From positions 1-49,408 of the forward strand of contig CALGEI010000187.1 in NCBI GenBank assembly GCA_937881575.1: 49,408 bases of DNA, given 5' to 3'. Position numbers and translations under genes: made by a program. This document shows, piece after piece, positions 1,750 through 19,505 of the stretch. Below the pieces are notes generated by a model that did no database searches, was not told the DNA's origin, and worked only from the letters and a program-made list of their open reading frames with translations. Position 1 is the stretch's first letter; every line of letters begins with the position of its first letter. The DNA is from an uncultured Flavobacteriales bacterium (lineage in GTDB: Bacteria; Bacteroidota; Bacteroidia; Flavobacteriales_D; Sanyastnellaceae).

Positions 1750-2016
1750 TTACTGACCATGATTTAGAACACTGCAGTGGATCAACTGAAACGATCCACT
1801 TTCATTTGTTTCGTTTTCGATGTCCTTGTATGGTGAAAAATCCGTGGGATCAAACGGGGTTGGACGTCGCTTCGGGTCACGGTTGGCATTGGCGAACAAC
1901 GCCATGAAACTGGACGTGTGGTTCCACATGCGGCGGCCGTCATCAATTCGTCCTTTACTGAATGCGAAGAGTTCGAAAAATGTGAACGACCAAAACTCAT
2001 GTGGTCGTAGGTTCAA
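1750..2016 (-). pseudogene. phage-like small tail-region protein, 5' end lost at a tRNA fragment
   Basis: The translated ORF (88 residues from a TTG) reads PHEFWSFTFFELFAFSKG, then a WNHTSSFMALFANANRDP segment, then PTPFDPTDFSPY. This layout (PxEFW start, central W.HTS..., A N.NRDPK, closing PxDFxPY) resembles small proteins encoded between tail tube and tape measure in phages of Bacteroidota. That comparison is from memory of the family pattern. No proper start or ribosome site is visible: the ORF's first codons fall inside the tRNA 3' fragment at 1994-2031, so the original 5' end was probably replaced there. No other phage tail genes are adjacent. Confidence 0.4.
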
Positions 2017-2031
2017 GTCCTACTGGGCGCA
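1994..2031 (+). pseudogene. tRNA 3' fragment (T-arm and acceptor strand)
   Basis: Positions 2007-2023 form a perfect T-arm (GTAGG, loop TTCAAGT, CCTAC), followed by a 7-base acceptor strand TGGGCGC and discriminator A at 2031. Upstream, ACTCAT and GTGGTC look like the 3' side of an anticodon stem and a variable loop. The matching 5' acceptor strand (GCGCCCA) and a D-arm are absent upstream, so this is a 3' fragment. Such fragments are typically left by integration of a phage or island into a tRNA gene. It matches neither of the two tRNA-Arg genes in the window. Confidence 0.6.
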
Positions 2032-2114: not shown

Positions 2115-2189
2115 GGCCCCGTAGTTCAATGGATAGAATAAGCGTTTCCTAAACGTTTGATCCGAGTTCGATTCTCGGCGGGGCTACCA
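2115..2189 (+). tRNA. tRNA-Arg (anticodon CCT)
   Basis: A complete cloverleaf. The acceptor GGCCCCG pairs with CGGGGCT with one G-U. The anticodon stem AGCGT/ACGTT encloses the loop TTCCTAA, giving anticodon CCT (decodes AGG). The T-arm is CCGAG-TTCGATT-CTCGG. The discriminator A is at 2186 and the CCA end is encoded at 2187-2189. The gene ends one base before the stop codon of the convergent synthetase gene. Confidence 0.95.
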
Positions 2190-4661
2190 CTAGAGGGCGT
2201 GAAATCCAAACGCTTGGCGTTCAAATTTAGCCCAGGCTTCCCTGAAGTCTTGGTTCTGTACTCTGAGAACTTCTTTGTGGTTGTTGCCGCACTCCATGAC
2301 TTCAAATCCTTTGAGGTGCATATTGGTCTTGGATTTTAATGTGGCCTTTGCTGCAATTCGTATGCCTGATAATGAATGAATGGGGCCATTGAATTTTTTG
2401 TATTGCCCCTGCATCCATGCAAAACGTCTTCGGTTTTCAATGAAGCGTTGATCGTCGATTTGGCTGGACCTCCCGTTGTAGAACGCTATATCGTGGGAAG
2501 CCACTTTCTTGCGTCCTAACAACTTGAATTGAAGACGGCGCTTTAGTCCTACATAGCGATCCCTCCAAGTGGGTTCAAGATCCGCAGGAGGATCAAGAAG
2601 AACAATTGGCAATACCTCTTGTCCTGCGGCGATTAGTATATCGGCCATGGTAAATGCCAAGGTATAACCGATACAAAGTGCTCCCAGTGCGTATGGCCCA
2701 TTGGGCTGAAGTTTTCGGAGCTCTTCTACATAACATTCCGCCCAATCTTGGAGTCCTCCAAAAGTCATCATCCTCTCGAGGGAGACTCCATGAGCCCAGA
2801 AGACATGAATGCCGATACGTTCATCCACAACTTCTGTAAAACGAGGGGAAATGAAGGCTTCACCAAGTTTGCCATGGATAAGAAACAATTGGTTGTTTGT
2901 GTTGGTTTTGCGAATGGTTACTAAGGGAGAGGGCCCTTCAAAGTTTAAATGTCCTGCATTCGCTTCTTTCATAAGGTGCGCAATACCACCAATGGTAGGG
3001 GGTTTGGCCAATTCCATAAGTGGAATGGTATTTCCGGTGGCTCGTTCGAACCGTCCGTGTAAACTAGCCCAAGCGAGAGAATCACCACCTGCACTGAAAA
3101 AATCAGTATCATGAGTGAGTGTCATTTGCAATCGAGGAATTTCCTGTTCAAACCACTCCGCAACGAGACGCTCGAAGTTTCCGTCAATACGGGATCCATT
3201 GCAGGTCCGGTTTGCAGCGGGTAAAGGTTTGGTTTCAAGTTTTTTCCGATCGATTTTTCCGGCTAATGTGCGGGGCAATTCCGTCATTTCTACCCAAGCT
3301 GTGGGCACCGCATATGAAGGAAGCGCTTCTAGAACATGCGCCCGAAGCGCATCAATATTGAAATTTCGGGAATGGATTGAAGGCACAATCCATGCAGCGA
3401 TTTTGTCATTTAAATCTTCTCGCAAGACGATAGCGACCTCTTCTACTTCAAGGTGGATGCGCACATGTTGTTCTACTTCGTCGAGATCCACCCCGTATCC
3501 GCTGATTTTAACGCGCCGGGCCGATCGACCGGCCAAGTGCAATTGACCCAATTCGTCGAGAAAGGCCAAGTCCGTTCCTGTGTAAGCGATTCCCTTCTCA
3601 GTGGACTCGAAAGAAGCGGCCTGTTCTGAAGTCGGATTGAAATACCCCGGGGAGACACTCGCCCCCGTGATGCGCAAACGACCAATTGTACCCACGGAGA
3701 CGGGTTCACCGTTCTCATCCAAAATATCCAAGTGGAGTTTTGATGAATCCCAGCCAGCCTTCAGGTCGTCTGCATTATTTAGGACTTTAAGAGCAATAAC
3801 GCTAGCCTCCGTCGCGGCAAGGTGATTGATCAAAAGGGCCCCTTTGGGTTTTACCCGAAGCCAAGCTTCGACATCGTCAAGTCTCACAGGCTCGCCGCCT
3901 AGATCAACGGCTTTCACAGAATGCAAGAGTTCAGCCGCCTTCGGGAGAGCTATCCAGCGTCTGAAAACGGAGGGCACGGTATGCAGGACTTCTATTTGCG
4001 AATGCTGGAGCCACTGTGTTGCTGCGTGGACGCCCAATTTATTCAAGTCAAATGCAACCAAGGTTCCGCCGTGCAGCAGGGTCCCGAGAATGTCCATCAT
4101 GGAAGCGCTGAACGCCGGAGAATAAAGCCATGAAACTTTCGTCCCTTTTTGAATGCCCAATTGACGCGCGAATTGGGTGGCGAAGTCGTTCATGCCATGG
4201 GAGGTTTGTTGAACGGATTTGGGAACCCCTGTACTTCCTGAGGTTTGAAAGATGGTACACACTTCCACGTGGTTTTCCGGAGGAACGACTGAGGTGGGAA
4301 CCCAATCAGGACGAATGGTTTTCAAATTCGGATGTGCAATTTTTGACAGGGGGAGATCGCTAATCAAAGCATGGGGCTTCAGATTCAGAATCAACCGATC
4401 CATCGTTGCCTCGGGCATGCGGTCGATGGGTATGGCAGTAGCACCGGCATGCCAGCAACCGAATAGAGCCGCCACAAAATGAGGTCCATTGGGCAGTTGA
4501 ATGGCTACGCGGCCTTGAGAGAATGCAGAAAGTTGCATGCTGACGGCATAAATATGCGTCATCAATTCGCCATAGGTCCAGACCATGCCATCGGGGCATA
4601 TAATGGCCGCTTTCTTAGGGTCCTCCTCTGCTATCCGCCCGAGTTCATTGACTAAATTCAT
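2190..4661 (-). CDS. stand-alone A-PCP-TE nonribosomal peptide synthetase-like enzyme
   Basis: An 823-residue tridomain enzyme with no condensation domain. The adenylation domain covers about residues 1-490: TSGSTGVPKS phosphate loop, NHLAATE at the A5 position, GTDLAF and GRSARRVKISGYG hinge region, and LPRTLAGKIDR with the A10 Lys. The carrier domain has FFSAGGDSLAW with Ser528 as the phosphopantetheine site. The thioesterase covers about residues 580-823, with LGALCIG (Cys663 where most have Ser) and a His in CGNNHKE. At the A4 motif, FSAS replaces FDAS, so the Asp that binds an alpha-amino group is Ser185. The substrate may therefore be a keto, hydroxy or aryl acid rather than an amino acid. 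ATG 4661 is preferred over the TTG at 4667. It is last in a four-gene operon, 2 bases after the previous stop. Confidence 0.9.
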   Translation of the reverse strand: MNLVNELGRIAEEDPKKAAIICPDGMVWTYGELMTHIYAVSMQLSAFSQGRVAIQLPNGPHFVAALFGCWHAGATAIPIDRMPEATMDRLILNLKPHALISDLPLSKIAHPNLKTIRPDWVPTSVVPPENHVEVCTIFQTSGSTGVPKSVQQTSHGMNDFATQFARQLGIQKGTKVSWLYSPAFSASMMDILGTLLHGGTLVAFDLNKLGVHAATQWLQHSQIEVLHTVPSVFRRWIALPKAAELLHSVKAVDLGGEPVRLDDVEAWLRVKPKGALLINHLAATEASVIALKVLNNADDLKAGWDSSKLHLDILDENGEPVSVGTIGRLRITGASVSPGYFNPTSEQAASFESTEKGIAYTGTDLAFLDELGQLHLAGRSARRVKISGYGVDLDEVEQHVRIHLEVEEVAIVLREDLNDKIAAWIVPSIHSRNFNIDALRAHVLEALPSYAVPTAWVEMTELPRTLAGKIDRKKLETKPLPAANRTCNGSRIDGNFERLVAEWFEQEIPRLQMTLTHDTDFFSAGGDSLAWASLHGRFERATGNTIPLMELAKPPTIGGIAHLMKEANAGHLNFEGPSPLVTIRKTNTNNQLFLIHGKLGEAFISPRFTEVVDERIGIHVFWAHGVSLERMMTFGGLQDWAECYVEELRKLQPNGPYALGALCIGYTLAFTMADILIAAGQEVLPIVLLDPPADLEPTWRDRYVGLKRRLQFKLLGRKKVASHDIAFYNGRSSQIDDQRFIENRRRFAWMQGQYKKFNGPIHSLSGIRIAAKATLKSKTNMHLKGFEVMECGNNHKEVLRVQNQDFREAWAKFERQAFGFHAL

Positions 4662-4663
4662 CT

Positions 4664-5800
4664 TCAATCTTTTGAACCTGTAATCATGATAACGCCGGAT
4701 TTGCCCTTGAGCTCTTCGCGAAGCTGATAAGCCGCCGAGTGAGTGGCAGCGGCGGCGAAGCAGGCGCGGATTTTTTGATCGGCTAAGGTTGCTTTGGACG
4801 CACGAAGTTCATCGGCAGAAACGGAGACAAATCGCCCGCCTGTGGTCTTCACAACCTTTCTGACGTAAGGATATGAAACGGTTGGGTTTCCGCGAAGAAT
4901 GGCAGCGGCTAACCCCTCGGGGTTCCGTTCGATATCATTTTCTGAAATAGCAGGGCGATTATCGCGGTCTGCCTTAACCATGGGAGCGCATGTTTCTTGT
5001 TGAACAACAATCATTGCAGGAATACGATCAATCCAACCGAGTTGCAATGCTTGTCGGAATGCAGAATGTGCCGCAATCACCCCCATACCGCTTGAGATGG
5101 CTTGAATGAAATAATCGGGAGAAGAACCATTTTGAGCCACAAATTGCTCAATGGCTTCGAGGTAAGCGGTTTTCAAACCTTCCCTTCGATAGGGGTTGTA
5201 AAACCCACCATCGGTTGACAGATTATGACGCTTTGCGTAAGCCTTAGCGGTATTTCCTGTTTCCATGAAATCACTGTCTGTAACATGAAGATCAACGTAT
5301 GGATTTAAAAACCGTATTCGACCCTGGTGGGTTTTGGGGACAAATACGTGCACCCAGAGATGGCCGGGGTGGAGCTGAGCCTCGTAACAATAACTGTTCG
5401 AAGAGTTTCCTGTGCTTGCGACCACTATTTCATTGATCCCCCCGGCCCAAAAAGCGGGAGCAGCAATGCTGGCTTGTCGGAATTTGGTGTTACCGGTCGG
5501 TAAATCCCCATCATTCTTGGCGAAGACCCCCGGCAAATCCACAAGTTTTTGCAATGTCGAATGCGCATCAGGGTAGATATAATTACCGAGAGGGAGAAGA
5601 TCTTTGTATCGATTCATTCCCGTTCCTGTAAATTCAGCGTTGCTGATGTTGGGGTAGGACAGCTCAATGGCACCCGAGCAAGACGGGCATTGAAACGTCA
5701 TGGCTTGCGGTGTTTCCTGACTACAATTGAGACATTTAAATACGCCATGCAATCCGAACTGTATGTCTTTTAAAAACTTACCTGTAGGTGTGACGGCCAT
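4664..5800 (-). CDS. threonine-synthase-like PLP-dependent enzyme with N-terminal zinc ribbon
   Basis: A fold-type II PLP enzyme of 378 residues. Cys23, Cys26, Cys38 and Cys41 form an N-terminal zinc ribbon, as in some threonine synthases and cysteate-synthase-like proteins. PTGNTKFRQ carries the Schiff-base Lys106; STGNSSNS follows as the Asn loop over the ring; SSGMGV resembles the phosphate-binding loop; the C-terminal MITGSKD matches the family ending TG.G.KD. It normally would perform beta- or gamma-replacement on a phosphorylated or activated amino acid. No homoserine kinase or aspartate-pathway gene is adjacent, so a specialised role feeding the A-PCP-TE enzyme is more likely than threonine supply. 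It lies 3 bases after the oxidoreductase stop. Cysteate or another beta-substituted alanine is a possible product, but this is speculation. Confidence 0.85.
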   Translation of the reverse strand: MAVTPTGKFLKDIQFGLHGVFKCLNCSQETPQAMTFQCPSCSGAIELSYPNISNAEFTGTGMNRYKDLLPLGNYIYPDAHSTLQKLVDLPGVFAKNDGDLPTGNTKFRQASIAAPAFWAGGINEIVVASTGNSSNSYCYEAQLHPGHLWVHVFVPKTHQGRIRFLNPYVDLHVTDSDFMETGNTAKAYAKRHNLSTDGGFYNPYRREGLKTAYLEAIEQFVAQNGSSPDYFIQAISSGMGVIAAHSAFRQALQLGWIDRIPAMIVVQQETCAPMVKADRDNRPAISENDIERNPEGLAAAILRGNPTVSYPYVRKVVKTTGGRFVSVSADELRASKATLADQKIRACFAAAATHSAAYQLREELKGKSGVIMITGSKD

Positions 5801-5803
5801 GGT

Positions 5804-6892
5804 TTAAATTTTTGATGAGTTTATTTTTTCAACTAAAATTTCAGCTGCTCTTGGAGCCATTTTGATGCCATATCCACCCAGCGCAGAGAGGGTGAAATAG
5901 GTGGTTTTTAATGTGTTTTGAGAAATCTCCGGGCGGTTATTCCGTGTGAAGCTTCTTATGCCAACAAAAGGCGTGAGATTGGCCAGTTCCAGACCCGGAA
6001 ACCAGGATTGGAATGATTCAAGTCCAGCTTCAAGAGCGCTTAAATCCGGGAGTGCATCTTCTATTCTTCCTTCCACTGCATCGCTTGGAGATAGAAACCA
6101 ACGATTCTGGAAGGGCCTTGCAAAAAATCGATCTTCGACTTCGTGAACCATCGGAACATTTGTGGATTGTTCGGAAAAGCCATGTTCGAAGTCTAGCCAG
6201 GCTGCAGTTCGACCGAGATTCTTAAGCCCTATTGGGGGAATATGCCCAATGTTGGCAATGCGGTCGGCCCAAGCGCCTGCGGCGTTTACAATGATGTCAA
6301 ACACTTCCGAATCATGGTTTTGAACTTCGAAGAGATGCCACTTGTCCTGAATCGATTCTATCCGGCCGATTTCGAGTCCAGTTATCAAACTTCCTTTTGG
6401 GTGCCTTTGGATAAACTGTTCTAGGTCCCCAACCATGCGAGGGACATCAATATCAAAATGATCGGAATCGAAAAGAAATTGGTCGCCAGGAAGTAATCTA
6501 AGAGGCAAAGGCGAAAGTGCCTTTAGGGCTTCTTCGGGATGAAGTGTTACTAGTTTAAGACCGTCTGACTTTGTTTTTTCTTGCAGTCTTGAAATCGCGG
6601 CCGACTGTCCTTTTCTGGCTAGAAAAATTTTACCTCTTTGACGTAAATATCCTTTTGTGCCAGAAGGCATCCAGAACGGTCGTTCGAGCGTGCCTCGACT
6701 TTCTGCCGCCAACCTACACACTTCCTCTGGGCCGTAATGCAAGCTGAAACTTCCAGCATTCCGCCCTGTCGCATGCAGGCCAACCGTTGCCTCTTTCTCA
6801 AATACCGTGACATGATAGCCTGAGTTCAATAAATGAGCCCCCCCCATCAACCCCGCTATTCCGCCTCCTATGATTCCTATGTAACCAGACAT
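5804..6892 (-). CDS. FAD-dependent D-amino-acid dehydrogenase/oxidase family protein (DauA-like)
   Basis: A 362-residue DAO-family flavoprotein. The N-terminal GIIGGGIAGL dinucleotide fold is followed by ATGRNAGSFSLHYGPE, which resembles the flavin-contacting stretch of D-arginine dehydrogenase (ATGRSA..). NAAGAWAD is the second FAD motif, and the C-terminal RSFTRNNRPEI plus GGYGIKMAP match the usual closing motifs. Members oxidise an amino-acid C-N bond to an imine that hydrolyses to a keto acid. In this operon it could supply a 2-keto or imino acid to the synthetase, which lacks the amino-binding Asp. The start codon directly follows the methyltransferase TGA (TGAATG), so the two genes are coupled. 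Confidence 0.85.
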   Translation of the reverse strand: MSGYIGIIGGGIAGLMGGAHLLNSGYHVTVFEKEATVGLHATGRNAGSFSLHYGPEEVCRLAAESRGTLERPFWMPSGTKGYLRQRGKIFLARKGQSAAISRLQEKTKSDGLKLVTLHPEEALKALSPLPLRLLPGDQFLFDSDHFDIDVPRMVGDLEQFIQRHPKGSLITGLEIGRIESIQDKWHLFEVQNHDSEVFDIIVNAAGAWADRIANIGHIPPIGLKNLGRTAAWLDFEHGFSEQSTNVPMVHEVEDRFFARPFQNRWFLSPSDAVEGRIEDALPDLSALEAGLESFQSWFPGLELANLTPFVGIRSFTRNNRPEISQNTLKTTYFTLSALGGYGIKMAPRAAEILVEKINSSKI

Positions 6893-7597
6893 TCAGAGAA
6901 GGGGTGTCTTTTGAAGATAAAATGCCAAACCGGGCATTTCAGAAGTCATGTGGGGTCCTTTTAGGTCCGCTTCATCAAAATGAGAAAGTGAAAACAATCC
7001 AGCGCAGGCGGCCTCAATCATTTCAATTCTCCATTGAGTCTCGGCTGATCGATCCGACTTGTTGTCTCGAAATGCTTTGACAACGAGCATCCATTTACCT
7101 CCTGGGCGCAACACCTTGTGCATCTTCTCAGCGACCAGTCGTCGTTCCTTGACTTTTTTGAAATTATGGAAGCAACCCACATCTAGGACCACATCGAAAT
7201 CCGCATGTAGCGTCGCTTCGATTGGCTCGGAGGAAAGAACGTCAAGAACTCCGAATGTGAGCAGTTTTTGCAGAGAGGGATGAAGTTTGGATCGGGATTC
7301 ATGAGCGATTTCAATCGCTTTCCCCGAAATGTCAACGCCATGAACAATACATTGGCCCACCTCTGCCATTCGAATTGCTAGCATTCCTTCCCCGCACCCA
7401 AGATCTAAAACGCGGGATTGCGAAGGAATCCAACCGGTTTTCATTGCGCGGTCGCATGCGTCCAAGGATTTTCTTCCACGCCACGGAGGAATCCGCTTCC
7501 GATTGGTAAAACTTTCATCCCACTTCGCCTGAACGGTTGTTCTAGAAGGAGGAAATATTTTTGACAAGATGGACCTGAGGGGTTGCATGCATGTCAA
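6893..7597 (-). CDS. class I SAM-dependent methyltransferase
   Basis: A 234-residue protein with the Rossmann SAM-binding motif VLDLGCGEGMLAIRMAE (motif I), GVDISGKAIEIA (acidic ribose-binding position), and FDVVLDVGCFHNF followed by LRPGGKWMLV (motifs IV and V). It belongs to the small-molecule methyltransferase type (methyltransf_25/TPMT-like). It is the first gene of the four-gene operon and presumably methylates an intermediate or product of the cluster at N, O or S. An internal ATG at 7588 (MQPLRSIL) is an alternative start. No clear TAnnTTTG promoter element was found in the 140 bases upstream, which end in the island attachment repeat. Confidence 0.85.
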   Translation of the reverse strand: MTCMQPLRSILSKIFPPSRTTVQAKWDESFTNRKRIPPWRGRKSLDACDRAMKTGWIPSQSRVLDLGCGEGMLAIRMAEVGQCIVHGVDISGKAIEIAHESRSKLHPSLQKLLTFGVLDVLSSEPIEATLHADFDVVLDVGCFHNFKKVKERRLVAEKMHKVLRPGGKWMLVVKAFRDNKSDRSAETQWRIEMIEAACAGLFSLSHFDEADLKGPHMTSEMPGLAFYLQKTPLL

Positions 7598-7905: not shown

Positions 7906-8430
7906 ATGTTGACGCTGTCAACCCGTTGGCGCAAACTGTTTGTGAACTTCGGGTCGTTGGAAAAGCAAAAGGAACCTCGCCGCAAACTCCGTGACACGAA
8001 AGTCGGACAATGGCTCAAATCGTCCACGCCTCATTTACTTGATGCCGTAGGTAATGCCCTCCCCGATTCGGGTGTTTTGGGAATCGTCAAAAACCTTGTT
8101 GACCTCGATAACAATGTCACCCATGAACAACGCATGGAGTTGCACAACCTCATCGTTTCCGAGCGGATAGCAATGGAGGCCGAATTGACCAAGCGTTGGG
8201 AATCGGACAACAATGCCGATTCATGGTTGGCCAAGCACACCCGACCGATGATTGTGTTGTCGCTTGTCATTGCCCTGTTTGTGTTCATCGTGCTTGATTC
8301 AATGGCCATTCCGTTCCAGGTCCGCGATGCTTGGGTCACCCTTTATGAAATCCTTATTGTCACCGCTGTTGGCGGTTACTTCACATTGCGTTCGGTTTAC
8401 GATAAGCGCAACAAACCGCCCACATTATGA
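7906..8430 (+). CDS. phage holin, 3-TM type (GTA_holin_3TM-like)
   Basis: A protein of up to 174 residues. After a charged N-terminus comes TKVGQWLKSSTPHLLDAVG and LPDSGVLGIVKNLVD, then a helical linker, then NNADSWLAKHTRPMIVLSLV with two or more membrane segments and FQVRDAWVTLYEILIVTAVGGYF near the end. The DSWL-K-RP layout before the membrane helices and the closing aromatic/Gly segment match the phage/GTA 3-TM holin family, which permeabilises the inner membrane in lysis. The first 25 or so residues may not be native. The stop overlaps the next phage ORF by 4 bases, as in an intact phage operon. No endolysin is nearby. It is the clearest phage gene in the island. Confidence 0.75.
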   Translation: MLTLSTRWRKLFVNFGSLEKQKEPRRKLRDTKVGQWLKSSTPHLLDAVGNALPDSGVLGIVKNLVDLDNNVTHEQRMELHNLIVSERIAMEAELTKRWESDNNADSWLAKHTRPMIVLSLVIALFVFIVLDSMAIPFQVRDAWVTLYEILIVTAVGGYFTLRSVYDKRNKPPTL

Positions 8431-8741
8431 CCCCACGTCCCTTGTCCCCTTCATGGGCATATGTCCATGACTTATTGACGAAGTACCCAAACACTCCGTC
8501 CCTGACTTTGGCCAAGAAAATAATGTCCGAGAATGGCTCCATGTTTACCACGGTCGAGGCGGCACGTTCGGCGATCCGATATTTCAGGGGTGCAACAGGA
8601 ACCAAGGCGCGGAAAAATGCCGACCCTAAGTTGGCACGACCATTTGATGAATCTATGTTCAACCCATTCGGGTTGCCTGAATCGGATGAAGTAGAATTCC
8701 TGCCGTTTGCGTTGCCCTCACTGAGTACCACTGAATCGTAA
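8427..8741 (+). pseudogene. truncated phage protein (N-terminal part, phosphoesterase domain probably lost)
   Basis: A 104-residue ORF starting in the ATGA overlap with the holin stop. It has a helical start, TLAKKIMSENGSMFTTVEAARSAI then RYFRGATG, and ends in LPESDEVEFLPFALP. From memory, this pattern (helical DNA-binding-like start, RYYRG..G, then E.PF.LP) is the N-terminal part of larger phage proteins that continue into a metallophosphoesterase domain. Here the frame stops right after that point, and the adjoining sequence encodes a signal peptide on the other strand. I therefore read it as a gene cut by recombination near 8740. Confidence 0.55.
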
Positions 8742-8976: not shown

Positions 8977-11900
8977 TCAGTTCGCCTTACGCAAGTGCCA
9001 CTTGCCCATGCGCTTGTTATCCATTTCGCCCGAATCGCTTGATTCATCAAACACGCTCCACTCTTCGTCTGGAATGCGGTGCTTGATGTTCGCAGGTGCA
9101 TAACGGACCTTGGTAACCTCACGTCCCTCGAAGTCGCGCATGGCCTGTACCGCGATCGCATTGTGTCGATCAAATGCAATCTCAAGCATCTGTACCATGA
9201 TCCTGCGCGAATCCTCATTCTTGAAAATTCGCTCCAGCTTATCCGTTGCCTCAGAAGTGTAGCCCAACAGCCGCTGGCGATCGACTTCGTCGAGGAATGA
9301 ATTGATCGAGTGCTCAATTTGCTTTTGGGTCAACGGCTTGATGTCAACGTCATCAATTCCAGGTCGGTATAACGTCAGTTCACCAGTTTCTTCATCTGCA
9401 ACAATGGGTCTCTTGATTTTACCCTCTGCGACGAGTTCATCTGCACTCACCTCTTCAGCATCGTGAGCGTACCAGAATGAGAGCAAGTTCTTCGCATCAT
9501 CCATTTCCTTCTTGGCCGCCTGAGTTCTTTTGCCCAATGTTGCCACTACCTCAGGTTCTCCATTGTTCAATCCCACAGAACAATTCACCACATTCTTGAA
9601 AGGACTGTTGCCGCCTTCCCACGCTGTGCCAATAACATTTTCAATGATTGCAGGCGTGAGATCGCGCGAAGAAACGGTACGCGCGTTGCCGTCTCCAAGC
9701 CCACTTGCAACGAGGTAATCACCGGATCGAACCGGTCCCAAAACGCGCACAGGAACCTGCCCCATAAAGGCCGCTTTTGCATAACCCGATGTGCTGCCTT
9801 GTGGAACATTTCCGATCACAATCGGGTTCGATGAAATAACGACCAAGCGCTCGGCACCATCCGTTTGATAGGAAAGCTCGCCTTCAAAAACGCCCGCGAC
9901 TTGTCCAGATTCGAACGCATCCTTTGGGTTGCGTTTGGGCAGCCATTCGGCGTAATCACCAGCACCTGAGGCGTAAGTCACGCCCACGCGGTCGTGTGCC
10001 GTTGTCGCGCTTCCGTACTGATAGCTGCTGTAATCTGGAACTGTCGTTCCTGAGGAGCCGTCGTTGTTGAGGCCATCTGCCGCTGTGCCGTCCATATTCA
10101 ACGCCCGCATGGAACCCAAAACAGCCTTGTTGATCCAATTGCTTTGGTCCCTGCTGCTTAACGTAATGCCCGCATAGGACTCAAGCCATTGCTCGTAGGC
10201 AAAGACAACATTTGCCGCATCAATAGCGCCCTCCAATGCATCCTTGAATGCATCATCCGCGTGTGGAGCGCAAACGCCGATGAAAGGAATGGGAATGGGA
10301 AAGAACACAGCCCAAATCAACGTGATACCGAAACAACCGGTTACGGATGTCGCTTCCGCGATGACCTCTATTACGTTTTGTGACACTTCCAACACGGCTA
10401 GCCAATAAGCGCGCTCTGCAGCTGTATACGCCTGTTCAGCGTTGAGCATGTCGTACCTAAAGGCCAACTGGTCCAACATATAGTCACCATTGTTCGTCAA
10501 TTCGTGGGTGCTGTTCGAGAATTTTCCAGAGTTCAAAACCTGAACGCGTTCGCCTTGAATCCTCCCAACCTCTGTGCCTTCACTGTTGCGGAATGAGACG
10601 TACCTATTCGCATTTCCCGGCAATTCGTTGTCAATTTGAATCGACATTACGCGCTGGGTGACTGCGCTGCTTGTGTTTTCAAACGAACCAGCAAACTCGT
10701 GATTCGAAGAGGCAATGAGCTGGCCATCCACGTTTAACGACGCTGTGTTGGACAACCCTCCTGTCGTGGTAAACGCCTCATTCAAGGTCGTATTGAGGCC
10801 CACCTTAATGCCCGCAACGTTGGCGTTGCTTTTTAATTCGCCGACGGATTTGACCGGACCGTTGACCACTGCATTGCCTTGAAAGGTCATGGTCCCGCCA
10901 CCGGTTTCGAGGTTGCCATTCAATTGGCTGGGGCCCGTGATGTCCAAAGCTTTGGCATTGAGCATCTGAGCCACTGCCAAGGTATCGTCCAAGTAAACGG
11001 ATGTCGACCGCAAAGGAACCTTAGAAATCATGTTACCACTAGCCGCAAGAACGGAGAATGTGGTATCTGTGCCGAAAGCGGAATCGACGCTTGTTATGGC
11101 GTGAAAATCACTGCCCATGGACAGCTCGTTGCGCAACGTAGTCCGTCCGAAGAGGTTCAAGAATTGGCCCGCAGACGTGTTGCCACCCACTGAGTCCAAA
11201 TCACCACTCAACGTAAGCGCTGATGCCTCTACACCTCCATCCGAGAAGGTTACCCCCTCGATGGTGAGGTCCCCCTTCACCAACACGTTGCCCGTGGCGA
11301 TGAACGAGCCTTCCACAAATGCGTCTCCCGTATTCTCGATGGTCGAATCGCCGATGAGCACCAATCCATTGTCCGAGCCATTTGTGGTCGCTTTGAAAAG
11401 TGAGTTCACCCGCAGATTTCCTTTGACAGTGGCCGAGGCGTTGACATCCAATAAATCAGCAACGCGCCACTCGTTCAACGTGGATTTTTCAGCAACATCC
11501 AGGTTGTTGAACCGGGAGGATCCTGTTGCTACCAAATCCCCTTTGATGTCCATGCCACCGTGCGAATAGACTTTCCCGTTGCTCGGCTGCAACTTGAAGA
11601 GCGTTGAGTCATTGGGCATGCCCGTTTCATCCATTCCTTGCTTCACGGCGAGCTGCGCGCGCAGCTCGAGGGAATCTTTGAAATTTGTACGACCGACCAC
11701 ATTGAGGTTGTTCAACTGACCTTCGCCTCCAACGACCATTTGATTGTCCAAGTCAAGGGAGGAGGTCTGAATGCCGCCATCGCTCAATTGGCTTCCGGCA
11801 ATGGTCAAGTCACCCAACGCAGCAAAGTCATCGGTCAAAAGCAACGAGTGCGCAGTTATGTTCCCAGCGATGCGTGCAACTTCTTTGTTGACCCACACCC

Positions 11901-14301
11901 CGCTGTCCACGATGCTTTCCTCAATGGTTAGATTCAATGACGTGCCTCGAAGGGAACCCGACTCCAGGTTTTCATGCATCATTGACTTCAGTTCGGTCAA
12001 CTGGTCTATGGACGATTGGACGTTGAATGGGTTGATGCTGGAAACGCCAAATCCAGTGGTCACATCGTAATACCGGTTAACGCGCGGCTCAAAGGTCAAC
12101 AACACCTCTTCATCGCATACCCCGTCGCCGTCCGAATCGTTGATGCACGTGCCGTCGCAATTCCGCGCGAACGGCCTGCCCGGTCCGCCGCACACGTTGC
12201 AGTTGTCGTAGACATTTCCATCGCAATCGCAATACCCCAGTCGGCTTGCTTCGCACCCACATCCCTCCAAGCCGCCGGGACCATTGCAGACTCCGCATTC
12301 ATCGATGATGCCCGTGCCTTCGGTGCACGGATCGTTGGGAATGCCGTCTCCATCCAAGTCGTCATCGCAAACGCCGTCGCCGTCCATATCTGTGCTACAC
12401 CCTCCGCCGCATATGCCCACAACATCTACGACGTTTCCATTGCAATCGCAAACACCCGCAGGAATTCCATTGCCATTGCAGACCCCACACTCGTCTTCAA
12501 TACCCAAGCAATCATCCACGTCGTCGCAGATCAAATCGCCGTCGGCATCTGCAGCACACGTGCCGTCACAGACGTAAATGGCATCGTAGGTTTTGGTGCC
12601 TGCACAATCGCAATAGCCCACAGGGATGCCCGTTCCATTACACGCCCCGCATTCATCGATGATTCCCGTACCCGTTGTGCAGGTGTCGATGTCATCGCAA
12701 ATGCCGTCTTTGTCAATGTCCGTGCTGCAATCGCCGCCGCACACACCGGCTGCATCGATGATTCCGTTGCCGGTTGTACAGGGATCGTTGCCGTCGTCAT
12801 CGCAAACACCATCGCCATCTGCATCCACTGCACAGTTGCCGCCGCAATTGCCCATTGCGTCTTCCACGTCCCCGTCGCAGTTGCACGCACCAGCGGGAAT
12901 GCCAGTGCCGCCGCACACACCGCATTCATCAACGGTGTTGTTGGGGGTGTTCGGGCAGGGGTCGATGTCATCGCAAACGCCATCGTCATCGGCGTCGCTG
13001 AAGCAGGTTCCGCCGCACACGTCGAGGCTGTCTTTCATGGTGCACGCGTCGAGGCCGAGCAGTGTCGCCGAGGCGTCGTAATTGCAAGCGGTCGCAATGG
13101 TGCAACCGATGACCTCCTCTTCATCGCATACGTTGTTTCCGGTTGCACCTGAAATGGAATCCGTGACGTTGATTGCCGTCCAATACGCGGCATTTGGCAA
13201 TGTGTCGTTTTCGCACGTTCCATCGCAATTTCGGCCCAAGACCTTCCACGTCGTGCAATTGCACCGGCCATCGCTCAATCCCAGAGATGGATCTATGGCA
13301 TCGAGGTAGAACGCAGAACCACCGCAAACGGAACAATCGTCAAGTTGTTGGCACCATTCAGCAGCAAGTCCCCATGTGGCATCGGAATTGAAATTGCACG
13401 CTGTGCCATCGGTGCACCCTTCTATGTCATTTTCGTCGCAAACGCCATTGCCTGTCGAATCCGCAAAACCGAACTGCAACCAATACGTACTGTTGGGGAT
13501 AATGTCGTTGATTTCGCCGCAGTAATCGCAAGCATTTTTGAATATGCAAGCCACAGCTGCTGGGTCGAGGTAGTTGCATGCTGAATAATCTGTGCAAGCA
13601 TCCAACGGATCCGTGGGGACTGTGCCAATCAAACAACCGGGCTCGCCGTACTCATCGCACACGCCGTCGTTGTCCTTATCGGTCAGGCAATGCCCGCCGC
13701 ACAGCCTTAAGGCATCTAATTCATTGCATGTATTGCCTACGCACGGATCGTCGATTTCACCATCGTCATTCGTATCGTGGTCGCACAGTCCGTCGTTGTC
13801 ACCATCGAGGGTGCAAAATTGTGCATCGCTGGGCAAAAGGCACCGTCCCACTTCGTCGTATACCTTGTAATTCACAGCTTCACAACTGCAGCGCCCACCC
13901 CTGATTTTCACTTCGTCGCCTTCGCACTCTTCGCAACGGGAGACGTTGGGGAATTTGCACGATCCATCGTCGATGGTAGCCGAACTCTCGTAATTGCACG
14001 CCAAAGGATGAATGCATCCATGCAGAGCTTTGTTGCAATCACATGTCCCAGGGCACAGCGAAGAATAAGCCGTGGTAATGGCATTGTTCAAAGGACATAG
14101 ATCCCCTAGAGTTGACACGTACAAGCTATCCGCGGAAATCTCCTCGGGGCAACATTGCAAATTTGTGGCAGCGTTGTCTTCACCCAATCCGTCGCCATCC
14201 AAATCTAGGTAATAAGTCTGTGTCGCAGTGCAACTCGTGCATTGGCCGTAACCCAACACAACCGCAGTCGAAAGAATGAAGGTTAATACTAACTTTTTCA
14301 T
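8977..14301 (-). CDS. giant secreted Cys-rich repeat protein with tailspike-like C-terminal domain (copy 3)
   Basis: About 1,774 residues from ATG 14301 (MKKLVLTFILSTAVVLGYGQ signal peptide; an ATG at 14307 overlaps the previous stop). The order is: TYYLDLDGDGLG-type opening; roughly 700 residues of Cys/Asp repeats ([25 protein letters not shown]); a beta-solenoid-like middle with repeating G-D-L-T-I-x-G units; a hydrophobic segment with a PIPIPF core and flanking Cys; a G2-like domain (TYASGAGDYAEWLPKRNP, then VVISSNPIVIGN and AFMGQVPVRVLG); and a charged helical tail. The Asp loops suggest calcium binding. No T9SS sorting domain is visible at the C-terminus. It is third in a three-gene operon. 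Probably a cell-surface or released fibre; the function is unknown. Confidence 0.85.
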   Translation of the reverse strand: MKKLVLTFILSTAVVLGYGQCTSCTATQTYYLDLDGDGLGEDNAATNLQCCPEEISADSLYVSTLGDLCPLNNAITTAYSSLCPGTCDCNKALHGCIHPLACNYESSATIDDGSCKFPNVSRCEECEGDEVKIRGGRCSCEAVNYKVYDEVGRCLLPSDAQFCTLDGDNDGLCDHDTNDDGEIDDPCVGNTCNELDALRLCGGHCLTDKDNDGVCDEYGEPGCLIGTVPTDPLDACTDYSACNYLDPAAVACIFKNACDYCGEINDIIPNSTYWLQFGFADSTGNGVCDENDIEGCTDGTACNFNSDATWGLAAEWCQQLDDCSVCGGSAFYLDAIDPSLGLSDGRCNCTTWKVLGRNCDGTCENDTLPNAAYWTAINVTDSISGATGNNVCDEEEVIGCTIATACNYDASATLLGLDACTMKDSLDVCGGTCFSDADDDGVCDDIDPCPNTPNNTVDECGVCGGTGIPAGACNCDGDVEDAMGNCGGNCAVDADGDGVCDDDGNDPCTTGNGIIDAAGVCGGDCSTDIDKDGICDDIDTCTTGTGIIDECGACNGTGIPVGYCDCAGTKTYDAIYVCDGTCAADADGDLICDDVDDCLGIEDECGVCNGNGIPAGVCDCNGNVVDVVGICGGGCSTDMDGDGVCDDDLDGDGIPNDPCTEGTGIIDECGVCNGPGGLEGCGCEASRLGYCDCDGNVYDNCNVCGGPGRPFARNCDGTCINDSDGDGVCDEEVLLTFEPRVNRYYDVTTGFGVSSINPFNVQSSIDQLTELKSMMHENLESGSLRGTSLNLTIEESIVDSGVWVNKEVARIAGNITAHSLLLTDDFAALGDLTIAGSQLSDGGIQTSSLDLDNQMVVGGEGQLNNLNVVGRTNFKDSLELRAQLAVKQGMDETGMPNDSTLFKLQPSNGKVYSHGGMDIKGDLVATGSSRFNNLDVAEKSTLNEWRVADLLDVNASATVKGNLRVNSLFKATTNGSDNGLVLIGDSTIENTGDAFVEGSFIATGNVLVKGDLTIEGVTFSDGGVEASALTLSGDLDSVGGNTSAGQFLNLFGRTTLRNELSMGSDFHAITSVDSAFGTDTTFSVLAASGNMISKVPLRSTSVYLDDTLAVAQMLNAKALDITGPSQLNGNLETGGGTMTFQGNAVVNGPVKSVGELKSNANVAGIKVGLNTTLNEAFTTTGGLSNTASLNVDGQLIASSNHEFAGSFENTSSAVTQRVMSIQIDNELPGNANRYVSFRNSEGTEVGRIQGERVQVLNSGKFSNSTHELTNNGDYMLDQLAFRYDMLNAEQAYTAAERAYWLAVLEVSQNVIEVIAEATSVTGCFGITLIWAVFFPIPIPFIGVCAPHADDAFKDALEGAIDAANVVFAYEQWLESYAGITLSSRDQSNWINKAVLGSMRALNMDGTAADGLNNDGSSGTTVPDYSSYQYGSATTAHDRVGVTYASGAGDYAEWLPKRNPKDAFESGQVAGVFEGELSYQTDGAERLVVISSNPIVIGNVPQGSTSGYAKAAFMGQVPVRVLGPVRSGDYLVASGLGDGNARTVSSRDLTPAIIENVIGTAWEGGNSPFKNVVNCSVGLNNGEPEVVATLGKRTQAAKKEMDDAKNLLSFWYAHDAEEVSADELVAEGKIKRPIVADEETGELTLYRPGIDDVDIKPLTQKQIEHSINSFLDEVDRQRLLGYTSEATDKLERIFKNEDSRRIMVQMLEIAFDRHNAIAVQAMRDFEGREVTKVRYAPANIKHRIPDEEWSVFDESSDSGEMDNKRMGKWHLRKAN
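12100..14240 (-). repeat. Cys/Asp-rich repeat array of giant protein copy 3
   Basis: Tandem degenerate units encode D-D/N-D-G-(V/I/L)-C-D loops alternating with DECGVC-type turns and CDCDG motifs, plus GC(T/I)..TACNYD units near the front. The DxDxDG spacing is that of thrombospondin type 3-like calcium loops. The repeats keep long ORFs open on the opposite strand, which are not genes. Confidence 0.8.
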
Positions 14302-14303
14302 GA

Positions 14304-17300
14304 TCATTTTCCTTGTTGTGTTGAAACATTGGTCGTCAGAGGCTCGAGCGGGCCGGTATCAAATCCCCAGTTGTGCCATTCACGCAGCGTTTTGCGATTG
14401 TGCGCATTTATTTTGGATTGCAAACCGTCGAGAAATGCTTTTTTGAGTTCGGGATGGGTTTCCATGTCGGTCATGAACTGGCGAAGATGGTCATCCTCAT
14501 CCCCAGAATTCATTTGTTCCATTGCTTCATCAAAAGCCAGCTCCATGCCCACGTTGTTCAAATTGAAGAAAGCAACCGACGTATTCTCTGGAACCTCATA
14601 CCCAATGGGCTTACCTGATTCCACCGTTGATTCCTCCCCTGCACTCCCGATGGGGACGCCCAGGATGCCTGCATTCTGAAGGGCCAACAAAGAGGGCTTT
14701 TCATCTTTGGCCAGCGACTCTGTAATTTCTTTCATTCCCTTCGAAACGCGCTCCATCTTGGCGATTTCCGACTCAATTTTGGCGAGGTTGCGCGCAATTC
14801 CTCGGTCCAAACCGACCGAGATGTTTACCAGATTAACTGAATGGCTATTGCCATCTTCCCACGCACGGCCAACCACTCGTGGCAACATCTCCGCATCCAA
14901 TTCCGCTTCTGACACGGCAACTCCAAAACCTTCATCGTGGCCACTTGTCACGATGTAATCGCCCGATTCGACTTGGCCAAGCACCTGCGCTTGAACCTGC
15001 CCCATGAAGGCGCATTTCTCGTATCTGGATTCATCATCTGGTGAATTTCCGAGCACGATTGGAAGCGTCGAAATCACGAAGAGGTGATCGGCATCAGATG
15101 TCTTCAGCGATATCTCGCCTCGCTTGACACCCACGATTTGACCTGGCATGAAATCATAACCCGGATTTCGCTTCGGCAGCCATTCTGCGTAATCACCCGC
15201 ACCCGAGGCGTAAGTAATGCCCCTTCTGCGACCGCCGGTGTTGACCATGTCCGCATCCCTCGCTGCATCATAAGCTTTCTTTGATTTCACTGCTGCATCC
15301 AATCCAAAGGCCGCATCCGCAACCGCCAACTCCGCTTGGTAAAATCCAACACCTGCTGACACAATTCCCGCAGCAGCTGCGATCAACATCGAAGGGATGG
15401 GCACGGTGGTACAGAATCCCGAACCGGCACAGACCGTAGTCGACCCCTCCTCAGCGGCATCACTGATGGCGTCGCTCAAATCCTTGCCAGCAAGGTACAG
15501 GCCGATGAGCGAACTGGCTTGATCAATTCCCGCCATTACCAGAGCGGTTTCCAATTCTCGCACGGCATTTTCATGCGATTTGTTGTTGTTCAATTCGCCG
15601 ATATTCTCGGCCTCAATGCGACCAATTACCACGCCTTGAGCGTTCTTGAACTCCATGAAGTTGGTGGCATTTTTAGGGTCGACCCGACCGGATTTCAACT
15701 TGATGCCGTCCCCTCCGTCTGTATTGATGAATTCCGCCGCAAACCCGTCGTTTAGGTTGACATCAACGTCTAGCACAGGTGTGGATTTCACCCCAGTGCT
15801 CACCACCTCCAACGCACCGTTGATGGTGGGTGCGCCGCCTGTGACAAACAAGCTATCGGTAATCAACCCGCCGCCCAAGTTCACTTCGCCTATCGTGCGA
15901 ATGCTTTTGTCGATGCGCAATTGGCTGTTGAATACGGCTGGACCGGAGAACGTTGCGCGTCCGTGAATGTCCACCGCCGAATTGAACGTGGCGTAGGACC
16001 GAACGTTGAGTCGATTACCGACGTAGACGCGGTTGGCCGTTGTGGTGGTATCCGTTTTGATTCGCGGAGCGGCGATGGAACCGTTCCAGGTTCGCATGTC
16101 CCCGCTCTGGCGCCAAACTTTGAAAATCAACGAGTCGCTGGAGGCGCTCAGGGTGGTGTGCCCGGTGCGCAGTTGGCGCATGTTCAAATTTCGGTAGAGA
16201 TCGACAGTACCATGCCAAGATGCCGTATTGCCCGCGGAGAGCTCACCTTTGAGGTTGGCATTGCCGTCCACATAGAGGTACCCAGCGCGGATATTGCTCG
16301 TCTCCAATCCGCCTTTGGCGAACGTCGAGCCTTTGATGCGGATATCGCCCATCACGTGAACGGAATCCTGAACGGTGAAGTCACCTGCTATATCCAAATC
16401 CGTTCCTATGAAGGTGTTTCCGTTGGAGCTGTTGACGGTCATGATGGTGTCTACCACGTTGGAATTGCCCACAAAGAGGCTTCCGAGCAAGTGCATGTCG
16501 TTGTCGACCACGATTTGGCTGTCCACGGCGGCATTGGTCAAGGTCCAGACGTTATCCACCTTTACGTGATCCAAGTTCGTGCTTCCCGCCACCTCGAATT
16601 TTTTATCCGTAGCCAATCGCAGGGCATTCACATCCCCTGTGACCGAATTCACTTCGATGGTTGCCGTTGCGCCTGCACCTTGACCGTCGTAGGCCACCAG
16701 GTCATCGGCAACGTCAACACCGTTTTTCAGCGCAGAGGGCCCATCGATCTTCAATTCGTCCGCAACGTTCATATCCCCACTTACATCGGCGTCGCCAAGC
16801 AATTCCATGCTCGTGGTGATAACGGTTCCTTCCGAGAACGTCACCCCTTGAATGGTCGCGCTTCCCGCAATCGCAGCCTTGCTGGCGATGGTCATGTCGC
16901 CCCCAACGACCAGCAGTTTTTCAAAGCGAGCCCGCTCACCCACAAACAGTGAGCCCCTGCTCACAATGGAATTTTCGATGGTCATATTGCGGGTGTGACC
17001 CGAAAGTGAACCGTCGTCGAGGTTTTCCGACATGCGGTCGTGTATCACGCTCATCGTGTCGAGGACTTCCATCAATCGCAGGTGATCCAAGTATTGGCTC
17101 AGCGAAACCTTGCCGTTGGCGATGGATTGAGACGGCAAAAGCACACGCGGGATTTCGAGAAGCACGTCGTAATCGCATTCACCGTCTTGGTCCAAATCAA
17201 TGCACGTGCCGTCGCAATTCCAGCCAAATGCCGACCCCACACCACCGCAATCTCCACATTCGTCTTCCACGTTGCCTTCGCAATCGCAATCGCCTGCAGG

Positions 17301-19505
17301 TTTTGGCAAGCAGCCACATTCGTAGTTCGCACCGTTTCCGTTGCAGACGCCACATTCATCCATTACACCAATGCAAGCATCCACACGAGCAATGGTAGTG
17401 TCTGCATCGCACAATCCGTCGTCGTCGGCATCCCCTCCCGGGCAATCTCCATCAAAATCACAAATCAAGTCGTGGTCAGCATCTTGAAAACACGTACCAC
17501 CGCATATGAACAGTGAATCCAGCGTGCTCCCCTCACAATCGCAATGGCCCAACGAGTTGGTGCAGCCCGGCGAACCGGCATCGCAAGGTGTGCCGTCGGG
17601 CATTGTGAACCAATTCCCTTGCGTTGAATCAGCTGCGCAATCGCCACAATCATCGATGATCCCTAAACAGGTATCATCTGGGTTTCCGTCGCCGTCTAGG
17701 TCGTCATCGCAAATTCCGTCGTTGTCCGCATCTGTCGTGCAGCTTCCACCACAAACGTCCACCGCATCCAATGTGTCACCAGCGCAGTTGCAACTCCCGG
17801 CTGGTAAAACCAAGGCAGCGGGATCGTTCAGGCAGACATTGCACTCGTTTCGGTTGTTGTCCGGATCATTGAGGCAGGGGTCTTCGGGTATGCCATCGCC
17901 GTTGGTGTCGTGATCACACAAGTAATCGCCATCGCCATCGGACCAGCAATTACCGCCGCAAACGCCGAGGCTGTCACGCTGGCTCGAGCAAATATCTGGA
18001 TCGTCCGGGAACCCATCGCCATCCAGGTCGTCATCGCACAGGTCATCGCCATCCGCATCATTTTGGCACAGTCCACCGCAAATCTTCAAAACATCGTAGG
18101 TGTAACCGTCGCAATCGCATTGGTTGAGCGCCACATCAAGGTAGCAATCTTCAGTGCCCGGTTCGCAGGGTGTTATACCATTGGCGAGGGTAAACCAATT
18201 TCCGGCAGCCGAATCTGCCACGCAGGTACCGCAAGCATCGTACAACCCAACACAATCATCCACGTCATCGCACGTATCATCGTTATCCACATCGTAAAAG
18301 CACGTTCCGCCGCATACATCTAAGCTGTCCTTGTAGATGCAAACTGAGTCGTCTGCGACGTTCACTTCACTGTTGTAATTACACGCTGATGCATCAGAAC
18401 ACCCAACGATTTCTGCGTTGTCACAGATGTCGTTGTTGTTGGCATCCGATGGACACGTGCCCCCACAAACACCCAGTGCGTCCTCCACGTTCCCTTCGCA
18501 ATCGCAAGCTCCTGTAACAATTCCACTGCCTCCGCACTCTCCGCAAATCGGATCCAATGTCAAGCAAAGTTGGGTTTGATCTCCGAAGTTCGCTTCTGGG
18601 TCGTAGTTGCACTTCGATTCGTCTCTGCACCCTTCGACACGCAGGTAGTCACACAGCATATAGTTTGTAGTGTCATTGGGCAACTGATAGGTCAAATTGT
18701 CTGTGTTGTAACAATTCCCTGAACAATCGTACCGCGTGATGTCGATGTCGTTGGCAAGGCACATGTTGCAGTTGTTCAACACTTCGCCATCGCAATTGCA
18801 TGCCGCACCTGCAACTCCGCCCAAGGTACAGTTCATGTCGCCTGGGACACAAGGAGTTGTGGTGCCAACGATGTAGTACCATGAACCCGAGGTCGAATTG
18901 GGTTGGCAAGAATTGCACTGGTCAACGATGTTCACCCCGCCAAACCCGATGCATTTATCGTCATCGTGGCCGTCCCCATCGGAATCATTGTCGCAAATAC
19001 CATCGAAGTCGGAGTCACCTGTGCATGCACCACCACACGTGTTCAAGGCGTCCAAATACAACGGTCCATATGGCGCTTTCTCGTCGCAATCGCAAGGTAT
19101 TTGCCCTGTCCCATCTGCAGCAATTCCGCCCGTGATCGGGTCGCATGTTTGGCAGCTGAGTGGGAACACGCAGGTTCCATTCTCGAGGATGGCTGAGGCA
19201 TCGTAGTTGCACGCCCCATCCACTGTACATCCGTGCGAAAGGCTCAAAGAGTCTTGTGAGCTCGTCGCGAACACCCTGTTTCCATAAAACGGGAACAAAT
19301 CCCCCGCTAGAGAGGCATACATGTCGGGCTTTGCGCAGCATGAGAGGTTCGTTTCGGGATTGTCCACCCCGTAGCCATCGCCATCGATATCGAGGTAATA
19401 CGATGTCGGCGTTGCGCAAGAAGAAGTTTCACAAAACGTGGAAGACTGCGCGGATCCCTTAATGGCCAACGCAATCATGAAAAGGAAAAGTAAATTCTGT
19501 TTCAT
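14304..19505 (-). CDS. giant secreted Cys-rich repeat protein with tailspike-like C-terminal domain (copy 2)
   Basis: 1,733 residues from ATG 19505 (MKQNLLFLFMIALAIKGSAQ signal peptide), one base after the upstream TAA; the longer frame from 19556 would put residues before the signal peptide and overlap the previous gene. The architecture is as in copy 3: YYLDIDGDGYG opening, Cys/Asp repeats, a solenoid-like middle, a hydrophobic Cys segment (CAGSGFCTTVPIPS), the G2-like domain (ITYASGAGDYAEWLPKRNP, VISTLPIVLGN, AFMGQVQAQVLG), and a tail with a coiled-coil-like KIESEIAKMERVSKGMKEI stretch. G2/IMC-type domains act in phage appendages as intramolecular chaperones that trimerise and self-cleave. 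Whether this one does is unknown. It belongs to a three-gene operon. Confidence 0.85.
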   Translation of the reverse strand: MKQNLLFLFMIALAIKGSAQSSTFCETSSCATPTSYYLDIDGDGYGVDNPETNLSCCAKPDMYASLAGDLFPFYGNRVFATSSQDSLSLSHGCTVDGACNYDASAILENGTCVFPLSCQTCDPITGGIAADGTGQIPCDCDEKAPYGPLYLDALNTCGGACTGDSDFDGICDNDSDGDGHDDDKCIGFGGVNIVDQCNSCQPNSTSGSWYYIVGTTTPCVPGDMNCTLGGVAGAACNCDGEVLNNCNMCLANDIDITRYDCSGNCYNTDNLTYQLPNDTTNYMLCDYLRVEGCRDESKCNYDPEANFGDQTQLCLTLDPICGECGGSGIVTGACDCEGNVEDALGVCGGTCPSDANNNDICDNAEIVGCSDASACNYNSEVNVADDSVCIYKDSLDVCGGTCFYDVDNDDTCDDVDDCVGLYDACGTCVADSAAGNWFTLANGITPCEPGTEDCYLDVALNQCDCDGYTYDVLKICGGLCQNDADGDDLCDDDLDGDGFPDDPDICSSQRDSLGVCGGNCWSDGDGDYLCDHDTNGDGIPEDPCLNDPDNNRNECNVCLNDPAALVLPAGSCNCAGDTLDAVDVCGGSCTTDADNDGICDDDLDGDGNPDDTCLGIIDDCGDCAADSTQGNWFTMPDGTPCDAGSPGCTNSLGHCDCEGSTLDSLFICGGTCFQDADHDLICDFDGDCPGGDADDDGLCDADTTIARVDACIGVMDECGVCNGNGANYECGCLPKPAGDCDCEGNVEDECGDCGGVGSAFGWNCDGTCIDLDQDGECDYDVLLEIPRVLLPSQSIANGKVSLSQYLDHLRLMEVLDTMSVIHDRMSENLDDGSLSGHTRNMTIENSIVSRGSLFVGERARFEKLLVVGGDMTIASKAAIAGSATIQGVTFSEGTVITTSMELLGDADVSGDMNVADELKIDGPSALKNGVDVADDLVAYDGQGAGATATIEVNSVTGDVNALRLATDKKFEVAGSTNLDHVKVDNVWTLTNAAVDSQIVVDNDMHLLGSLFVGNSNVVDTIMTVNSSNGNTFIGTDLDIAGDFTVQDSVHVMGDIRIKGSTFAKGGLETSNIRAGYLYVDGNANLKGELSAGNTASWHGTVDLYRNLNMRQLRTGHTTLSASSDSLIFKVWRQSGDMRTWNGSIAAPRIKTDTTTTANRVYVGNRLNVRSYATFNSAVDIHGRATFSGPAVFNSQLRIDKSIRTIGEVNLGGGLITDSLFVTGGAPTINGALEVVSTGVKSTPVLDVDVNLNDGFAAEFINTDGGDGIKLKSGRVDPKNATNFMEFKNAQGVVIGRIEAENIGELNNNKSHENAVRELETALVMAGIDQASSLIGLYLAGKDLSDAISDAAEEGSTTVCAGSGFCTTVPIPSMLIAAAAGIVSAGVGFYQAELAVADAAFGLDAAVKSKKAYDAARDADMVNTGGRRRGITYASGAGDYAEWLPKRNPGYDFMPGQIVGVKRGEISLKTSDADHLFVISTLPIVLGNSPDDESRYEKCAFMGQVQAQVLGQVESGDYIVTSGHDEGFGVAVSEAELDAEMLPRVVGRAWEDGNSHSVNLVNISVGLDRGIARNLAKIESEIAKMERVSKGMKEITESLAKDEKPSLLALQNAGILGVPIGSAGEESTVESGKPIGYEVPENTSVAFFNLNNVGMELAFDEAMEQMNSGDEDDHLRQFMTDMETHPELKKAFLDGLQSKINAHNRKTLREWHNWGFDTGPLEPLTTNVSTQQGK
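17160..19425 (-). repeat. Cys/Asp-rich repeat array of giant protein copy 2
   Basis: The same repeat grammar as in the other two giants: DSDFDGICDNDSDGDG-like calcium loops, DECGVCNG and NACNYD units, often with a longer inserted D.C...W(F/Y)(T/Y)LA.G..PC.PG segment. Unit order differs from copies 1 and 3, which suggests shuffling between paralogues. Confidence 0.8.

Follow-up and report, generated by a model that had tools for sequence, protein, structure and literature searches.

A rare, probably horizontally moved NRPS-like mini-cluster in two related uncultured Flavobacteriales species

The window (the whole stretch of DNA that was analysed, 49,408 nucleotides) carries four intact and complete open reading frames with zero internal stops on the minus strand between positions 2190 and 7597. 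Together, the four genes make up a cluster of 5.4 kb. The genes and the features that flank them are as follows:

2002-2031, plus strand: 3' half of a CAT-anticodon tRNA, recognised by comparison with 13 relatives
2115-2189, plus strand: tRNA-Arg(CCT), predicted by ARAGORN, with its 3' end abutting the last stop codon of the operon
2190-4661, minus strand: stand-alone A-PCP-TE synthetase, 823 aa (Pfam, alignment to GrsA/1amu)
4664-5800, minus strand: fold-type II PLP enzyme with a zinc ribbon, threonine-synthase/cysteate-synthase-like, 378 aa (Pfam PALP, alignments)
5804-6892, minus strand: DauA-like FAD-dependent amino-acid oxidoreductase, 362 aa (Pfam DAO, alignment to DauA)
6893-7597, minus strand: class I SAM methyltransferase, 234 aa counted from TTG 7597 (Pfam Methyltransf_31)
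7906-8430, plus strand: small phage-holin-like protein (PHROG 3427 holin, E 2.1e-12), which flanks the operon and lies outside the pathway

An earlier note on this DNA had described four packed genes with spacings of 0, 3 and 2 nt, and according to the ORF check and the junction reads these values are exact. The methyltransferase gene runs directly into the DAO gene (TGA-ATG), the DAO and PLP genes are separated by three nucleotides (TAA-ACC-ATG), and the PLP and synthetase genes by two (TGA-AG-ATG). The start codon of the synthetase is ATG 4661; the alternative TTG 4667 would overlap the PLP gene. For the methyltransferase, ATG 7588 is a likelier start than TTG 7597. The family assignments of the note (methyltransferase, DauA-like flavoenzyme, zinc-ribbon PLP enzyme and A-PCP-TE synthetase) agree with the Pfam and structure matches, and all four enzymes are members of known superfamilies.

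The operon lies at a tRNA site. Across the genus, the gene content on the operon side of tRNA-Arg(CCT) varies from species to species (13 relatives compared). In 12 of these 13, an intact CAT-anticodon tRNA is found beside tRNA-Arg(CCT); here it is truncated, with unrelated DNA upstream, and a search of the fragment region against its own genome found no second copy. The truncated tRNA may be an attachment remnant, left by an island that integrated there and the other end of which is unassembled, or it may be due to an assembly join. The GC3 of the operon genes is 0.41-0.49, compared to mostly 0.50-0.68 for the other genes of the window. A search of the window for an attachment repeat of tRNA-Arg was negative, and none of the flanking ORFs tested was recognised as an integrase. 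The low GC3, the variable flank of tRNA-Arg and the holin-like neighbour are signs of a genomic island. Judged by these sequence features, the operon is probably part of such an island and has probably been moved horizontally.

The holin-like gene overlaps by 4 bp with a following small, unassigned ORF (window 7906-8741), and the pair is likely a prophage remnant. A 77% identical holin-like copy in genome G060 has an internal TGA. Further along, window 8977-24825 encodes three consecutive giant proteins of about 1,750-1,776 aa with Cys/Asp-rich thrombospondin type 3-like repeats, the first of which has no Pfam match.

A second locus with the same four families is present on the 5,480-base contig DBBR01000058.1 of Flavobacteriales bacterium UBA979, a different species of the same genus. 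The DAO, PLP and A-PCP-TE genes occur there in the same order, and the methyltransferase gene adjoins the DAO gene but is divergent, so that the single operon is not a conserved feature. Since the second locus is a 5.5-kb contig, it does not fix the cluster borders in UBA979. Between the host and UBA979, the identities are 55% for the PLP enzyme, 42% for the DAO protein, 42% for the synthetase and 37% for the methyltransferase, whereas a housekeeping protein from the same genome pair, a member of the methylmalonyl-CoA mutase family, reaches 81%. For the operon genes, pN is 0.32-0.44 versus a saturated pS of about 0.8, which indicates that the four-gene set is under purifying selection. The divergence of the set is well beyond that of the hosts, and fits separate acquisition or fast evolution. 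The low identities and the low pN show a set that has remained joined under purifying selection while diverging further than its hosts, and the recurrence of all four families in another species, at a pN far lower than pS, is more than chance. The tRNA flank, the holin-like neighbour and the low GC3 could also be explained by genes that travel on a mobile island as passengers and share no pathway. However, each of the four genes is intact and shows purifying selection, and they recur jointly at great divergence, which makes mere passengers very doubtful.

The four-gene set is rare and patchy, and is so far found only in the two related uncultured Flavobacteriales species. At E <= 1e-10, the PLP gene is present in two of the 22 genomes of the genus, and in none of the 92 remaining genomes of the family. 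Partly overlapping draws of 399 genomes from the order and 395 from the class contained no further genome with the gene, and a draw of 394 from the phylum, which partly overlaps the former two, contained only generic threonine-synthase relatives (about 1e-27). A contig scan of 84,980 species, restrictive in that it used two narrow PLP-enzyme peptide patterns, matched UBA979 alone. Nothing comparable to the four-gene set was found in the other Bacteroidota genomes searched. Other Bacteroidota carry stand-alone A-T-TE proteins of about 840-910 aa in unrelated contexts, and DAO, PLP and methyltransferase genes were absent from the seven neighbourhoods that were opened. One further A-T-TE protein is conserved in four genomes of one Bacteroidota genus (L097, L098, L100 and L101); its codes are similar (DI[V/L]A-GM...), and its gene always lies between those for proteins of about 395 aa and about 1,871 aa.

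The matches listed in a tblastn search of plasmids were limited to generic threonine synthases and NRPS modules (both <=29%) and to DAO enzymes (<=31%), and two of the match neighbourhoods (in Phaeobacter and Streptomyces) were without the four-gene set. Scans of IMG/VR gave no relevant match, a defence library search gave generic matches only, and in the papers covered by text searches we found no described cluster with this four-gene combination. The earlier note had proposed a biosynthetic cluster, and had named as evidence against it either homologues scattered without synteny or a closer single-copy primary-metabolism orthologue for each gene. Neither outcome occurred. The proposal is upheld by the conservation in a second species, by a separate housekeeping threonine synthase and by the patchy, rare distribution, and it is highly probable that the four genes represent a genuine specialised-metabolite cluster.

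The PLP enzyme matches Pfam PALP with 105 bits (cut-off 35). It has a zinc ribbon (C23-x2-C26...C38-x2-C41) that is kept in both species, and K106 (in GNTKFR) is the candidate Schiff-base lysine. The enzyme retains the threonine-synthase stretch NPYRREGLKT (NPxRxEGxKT) and also contains a cysteate-synthase-like stretch, DYFIQAISSGMGVIAA, the counterpart of which is DYYFQAVGSGTGAIAA in 9k3c. It scores under every NCBIfam cut-off, and far below the curated ones. An identity as threonine synthase was rejected (98.4 bits versus a cut-off of 358, and the genome has a further thrC next to thrB), as was an identity as cysteate synthase (TIGR03844, 87.7 bits versus a cut-off of 324.9). The housekeeping threonine synthase gene directly adjoins the homoserine kinase gene (thrC/thrB) on contig C37 of the same genome, which also encodes three more proteins of the PALP family; by sequence, two of these resemble cysteine synthases. 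Going by its family, the natural guess for the reaction of the operon's PLP enzyme would be a replacement at the beta or gamma carbon of a phosphorylated amino acid.

The flavoenzyme matches Pfam DAO with 124.4 bits (cut-off 27.9), and its nearest solved structure is DauA (E 1.3e-20; E 9e-28 by profile). As expected for a DAO-family oxidoreductase, it has the FAD Rossmann motif GGGIAG and two carboxylate arginines, R228 and R313. The active site of DauA comprises H48, Y53, E87, R222, E246, Y249 and R305, with the carboxylate held by R222 and R305 and the guanidinium by E87 and E246 (PMC11193025). In the phmmer/hmmsearch alignment, the equivalent residues of the flavoenzyme are S48, Y53, K88, R228, D254, F257 and R313. 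Y53 is replaced by Phe in UBA979, and the exchange of E87 for K88 is found in both species. An identity as D-arginine dehydrogenase was rejected, with H48, E87 and Y249 replaced and only R222 and R305 kept among five tested residues. As the arginines for the carboxylate are kept and the pocket for the arginine side chain is replaced, an alpha-amino (or imino) acid is the likely substrate, and arginine an unlikely one.

K88 hints, weakly, at an acidic side chain on the substrate. A route to a sulfonate or another acidic side chain would have a cysteate-synthase-like PLP enzyme followed by a flavoenzyme that generates an acidic keto acid such as sulfopyruvate. This would agree with the cysteate-synthase-like stretch and the TIGR03844 score of the PLP enzyme, and with the lysine that takes the place of the guanidinium-binding Glu87 of DauA in both species. 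However, the TIGR03844 cut-off is missed, the threonine-synthase motif is retained, and the DauA gate residue E246 remains acidic (D254), so that we regard this route as improbable.

In the synthetase, Pfam detects AMP-binding (152.8 bits, cut-off 29.9), PP-binding (30.8, cut-off 20.8) and Thioesterase domains (31.4, cut-off 26.4), with AMP-binding_C slightly below its cut-off (23.1 versus 24.5). With three domains in one chain, the carrier serine Ser528 in the PCP motif GGDSL and a TE triad, the protein has the hallmarks of an NRPS-like A-PCP-TE synthetase. The host genome has a PPTase-family gene on a 260-aa frame, so that priming of the carrier domain in the host is plausible. For the PLP enzyme and the synthetase, AlphaFold models built from two-row alignments were unusable (mean pLDDT of 36 and 32, respectively).

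Alignment to GrsA (with a reference sequence identical to 1amu over 299 residues) gives the A-domain code S-A-M-[H/T]-D-G-H-V-I-K in both species, with a fourth position that depends on gap placement. The code agrees across the two species despite only 42% overall synthetase identity. Asp235 (GrsA numbering) normally binds the alpha-amino group of the substrate. The corresponding residue is Ser185 in the synthetase, with Ser in both species, and not the Asp expected for alpha-amino acids; in seven other Bacteroidota A-T-TE proteins, the column holds Asp six times and Gly once. As Asp235 is lacking, an ordinary alpha-amino acid is probably not the substrate of the A domain. Keto-acid A domains have Val at code position 1 (PMC10316625). 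This Val is absent in both species, which have Ser instead, and the synthetase thus does not conform to the aromatic alpha-keto-acid synthetases of the RalA/atromentin type. The code fits a substrate other than a standard alpha-amino acid, and does not by itself prove a keto acid. It had been suggested previously that the flavoenzyme provides a keto or imino acid for the synthetase. The conserved R222/R305 pair and the absence of Asp235 support this circumstantially, but the keto-acid Val signature is missing.

Alternatively, the synthetase may activate an unusual amino (or beta/gamma-amino, or hydroxy) acid, and the flavoenzyme may act later, on the tethered or released product. The absence of Asp235 also fits acids that carry the amino group elsewhere than at the alpha carbon. 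An amino group could be held by the Asp at code position 299, and DltA-type D-Ala ligases are among the closest models to the A domain. However, DauA-type enzymes act on free amino acids, and the two conserved carboxylate arginines of the flavoenzyme suggest a substrate with a free carboxylate rather than a thioester. This step order is possible, but rather unlikely, and we favour oxidation ahead of activation.

The similarity to DltA would also suit an envelope modification, with the synthetase charging a small acid and the MBOAT protein encoded at positions 45-1487 transferring it to a cell-surface acceptor. The A domain scores with DltA, the MBOAT protein scores with DltB (146 bits, cut-off 375), and both genes are on the minus strand. 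Nevertheless, such a role appears most unlikely. The PCP carries a fused TE domain, the MBOAT gene is set apart from the operon by about 700 bases and two tRNA features, with the truncated tRNA at 2002 as a break, and the genome holds a separate A, A-ACP and MBOAT operon on contig C118. In the latter, Dlt-like operon, the gene for the MBOAT acyltransferase accompanies genes for two A-domain proteins, one of 825 aa (A domain at the C-terminus) and one of 610 aa (A-ACP).

The alignment columns place the catalytic triad of the TE domain at Cys663-Asp690-His795, with Asp690 at the EntF/AB3403 position and the nucleophile in a Leu-Cys-Ile motif. The nearest solved TE is the uncharacterised AB3403. 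In ObiF and SulM, the Cys nucleophile is combined with an Asp that has moved to a later strand (position II), and the SulM motif is Gln-Cys-Asn (PMC6668435, PMC11298585). The position of Asp690 and the Leu-Cys-Ile motif do not match a beta-lactone- or beta-lactam-forming Cys TE of the ObiF/SulM type.

The small-molecule methyltransferase matches Pfam Methyltransf_31 with 57 bits (cut-off 27) and has the motifs PPWRGR, VLDLGCGEG and DVGCFHNF. The best NCBIfam model is CpaM (56.9 bits versus a cut-off of 180). PF05724 TPMT scores 30.1 bits, with many other classes scoring alike, and the thiol methyltransferase 9h0d is among the nearest solved structures, with weak likeness. METHYLTRANSFERASE is a small class I enzyme, weakly thiol-methyltransferase-like.

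There is good support for the existence of the cluster; its chemistry and step order are inferred, and for the order we see about even chances. In the proposed pathway, the PLP enzyme would start from an O-phospho amino acid and, by replacement at its beta or gamma position, make a non-standard amino acid, and the DauA-like flavoenzyme would oxidise this alpha-amino acid to the imino or keto acid. The A domain, without the amino-binding Asp, would then adenylate the imino or keto acid and load it onto the PCP, and the Cys-Asp-His TE would release the acid by self-condensation, cyclisation or hydrolysis. Finally, the methyltransferase would cap a heteroatom. Several points count against this pathway. 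The usual products of fold-type II PLP enzymes are L-amino acids, but DauA is specific for the D-form, and a racemase gene is absent. The four-gene set also contains no exporter, regulator or resistance gene, it is present in only two genomes, and the keto-acid Val marker is missing. The complete reading, a horizontally moved small cluster for a low-molecular-weight metabolite made by this pathway, could equally well turn out right or wrong. A more specific version is unlikely, though conceivable: the threonine-synthase-like enzyme would supply an acidic or sulfur-bearing amino acid, and after its oxidation an A-T-TE synthetase with the new code SAM[H/T]DGHVIK and a Cys TE would dimerise or cyclise it, as a minimal four-enzyme line to a new scaffold.

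Our analysis confirms an orphan, rare NRPS-like mini-cluster that has probably been moved horizontally. A code without Asp235, a Cys TE and a PLP enzyme outside the curated subfamilies could give new chemistry, and the small size makes the whole cluster transferable to a laboratory host. The data suggest that miniature biosynthetic islands are passed between small-genome uncultured Flavobacteriales at a tRNA site. Orphan clusters as such are common, and this one alone settles no long-standing question.

Each part of the cluster has known counterparts. The flavoenzyme shares its overall sequence and R222 and R305 with DauA, but E87, H48 and Y249 are replaced. The PLP enzyme shares the fold-type II PLP domain and zinc ribbon with threonine and cysteate synthases, as well as NPxRxEGxKT with the former and QAxxSGxGxIAA with the latter, but differs by scores far under the curated cut-offs, and the housekeeping thrC is located elsewhere. 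The Cys nucleophile of the TE is common to the NRPS Cys-TE modules of AB3403, ObiF and SulM. Its Asp is at the EntF/AB3403 position, in contrast to the later strand in ObiF and SulM, and its motif is Leu-Cys-Ile instead of the Gln-Cys-Asn of SulM. With the A-T-TE keto-acid synthetases (bacterial RalA and EchA, fungal atromentin and polyporic acid synthetases), the synthetase has in common the stand-alone three-domain layout and a code position 1 without Asp. The proposed logic, here inferred, is also similar, in that an amino acid is first deaminated to a keto acid. However, code position 1 is Ser here and Val in the keto-acid enzymes (PMC10316625). Moreover, the keto-acid synthetase systems deaminate aromatic amino acids, and only the present cluster has an additional PLP enzyme.
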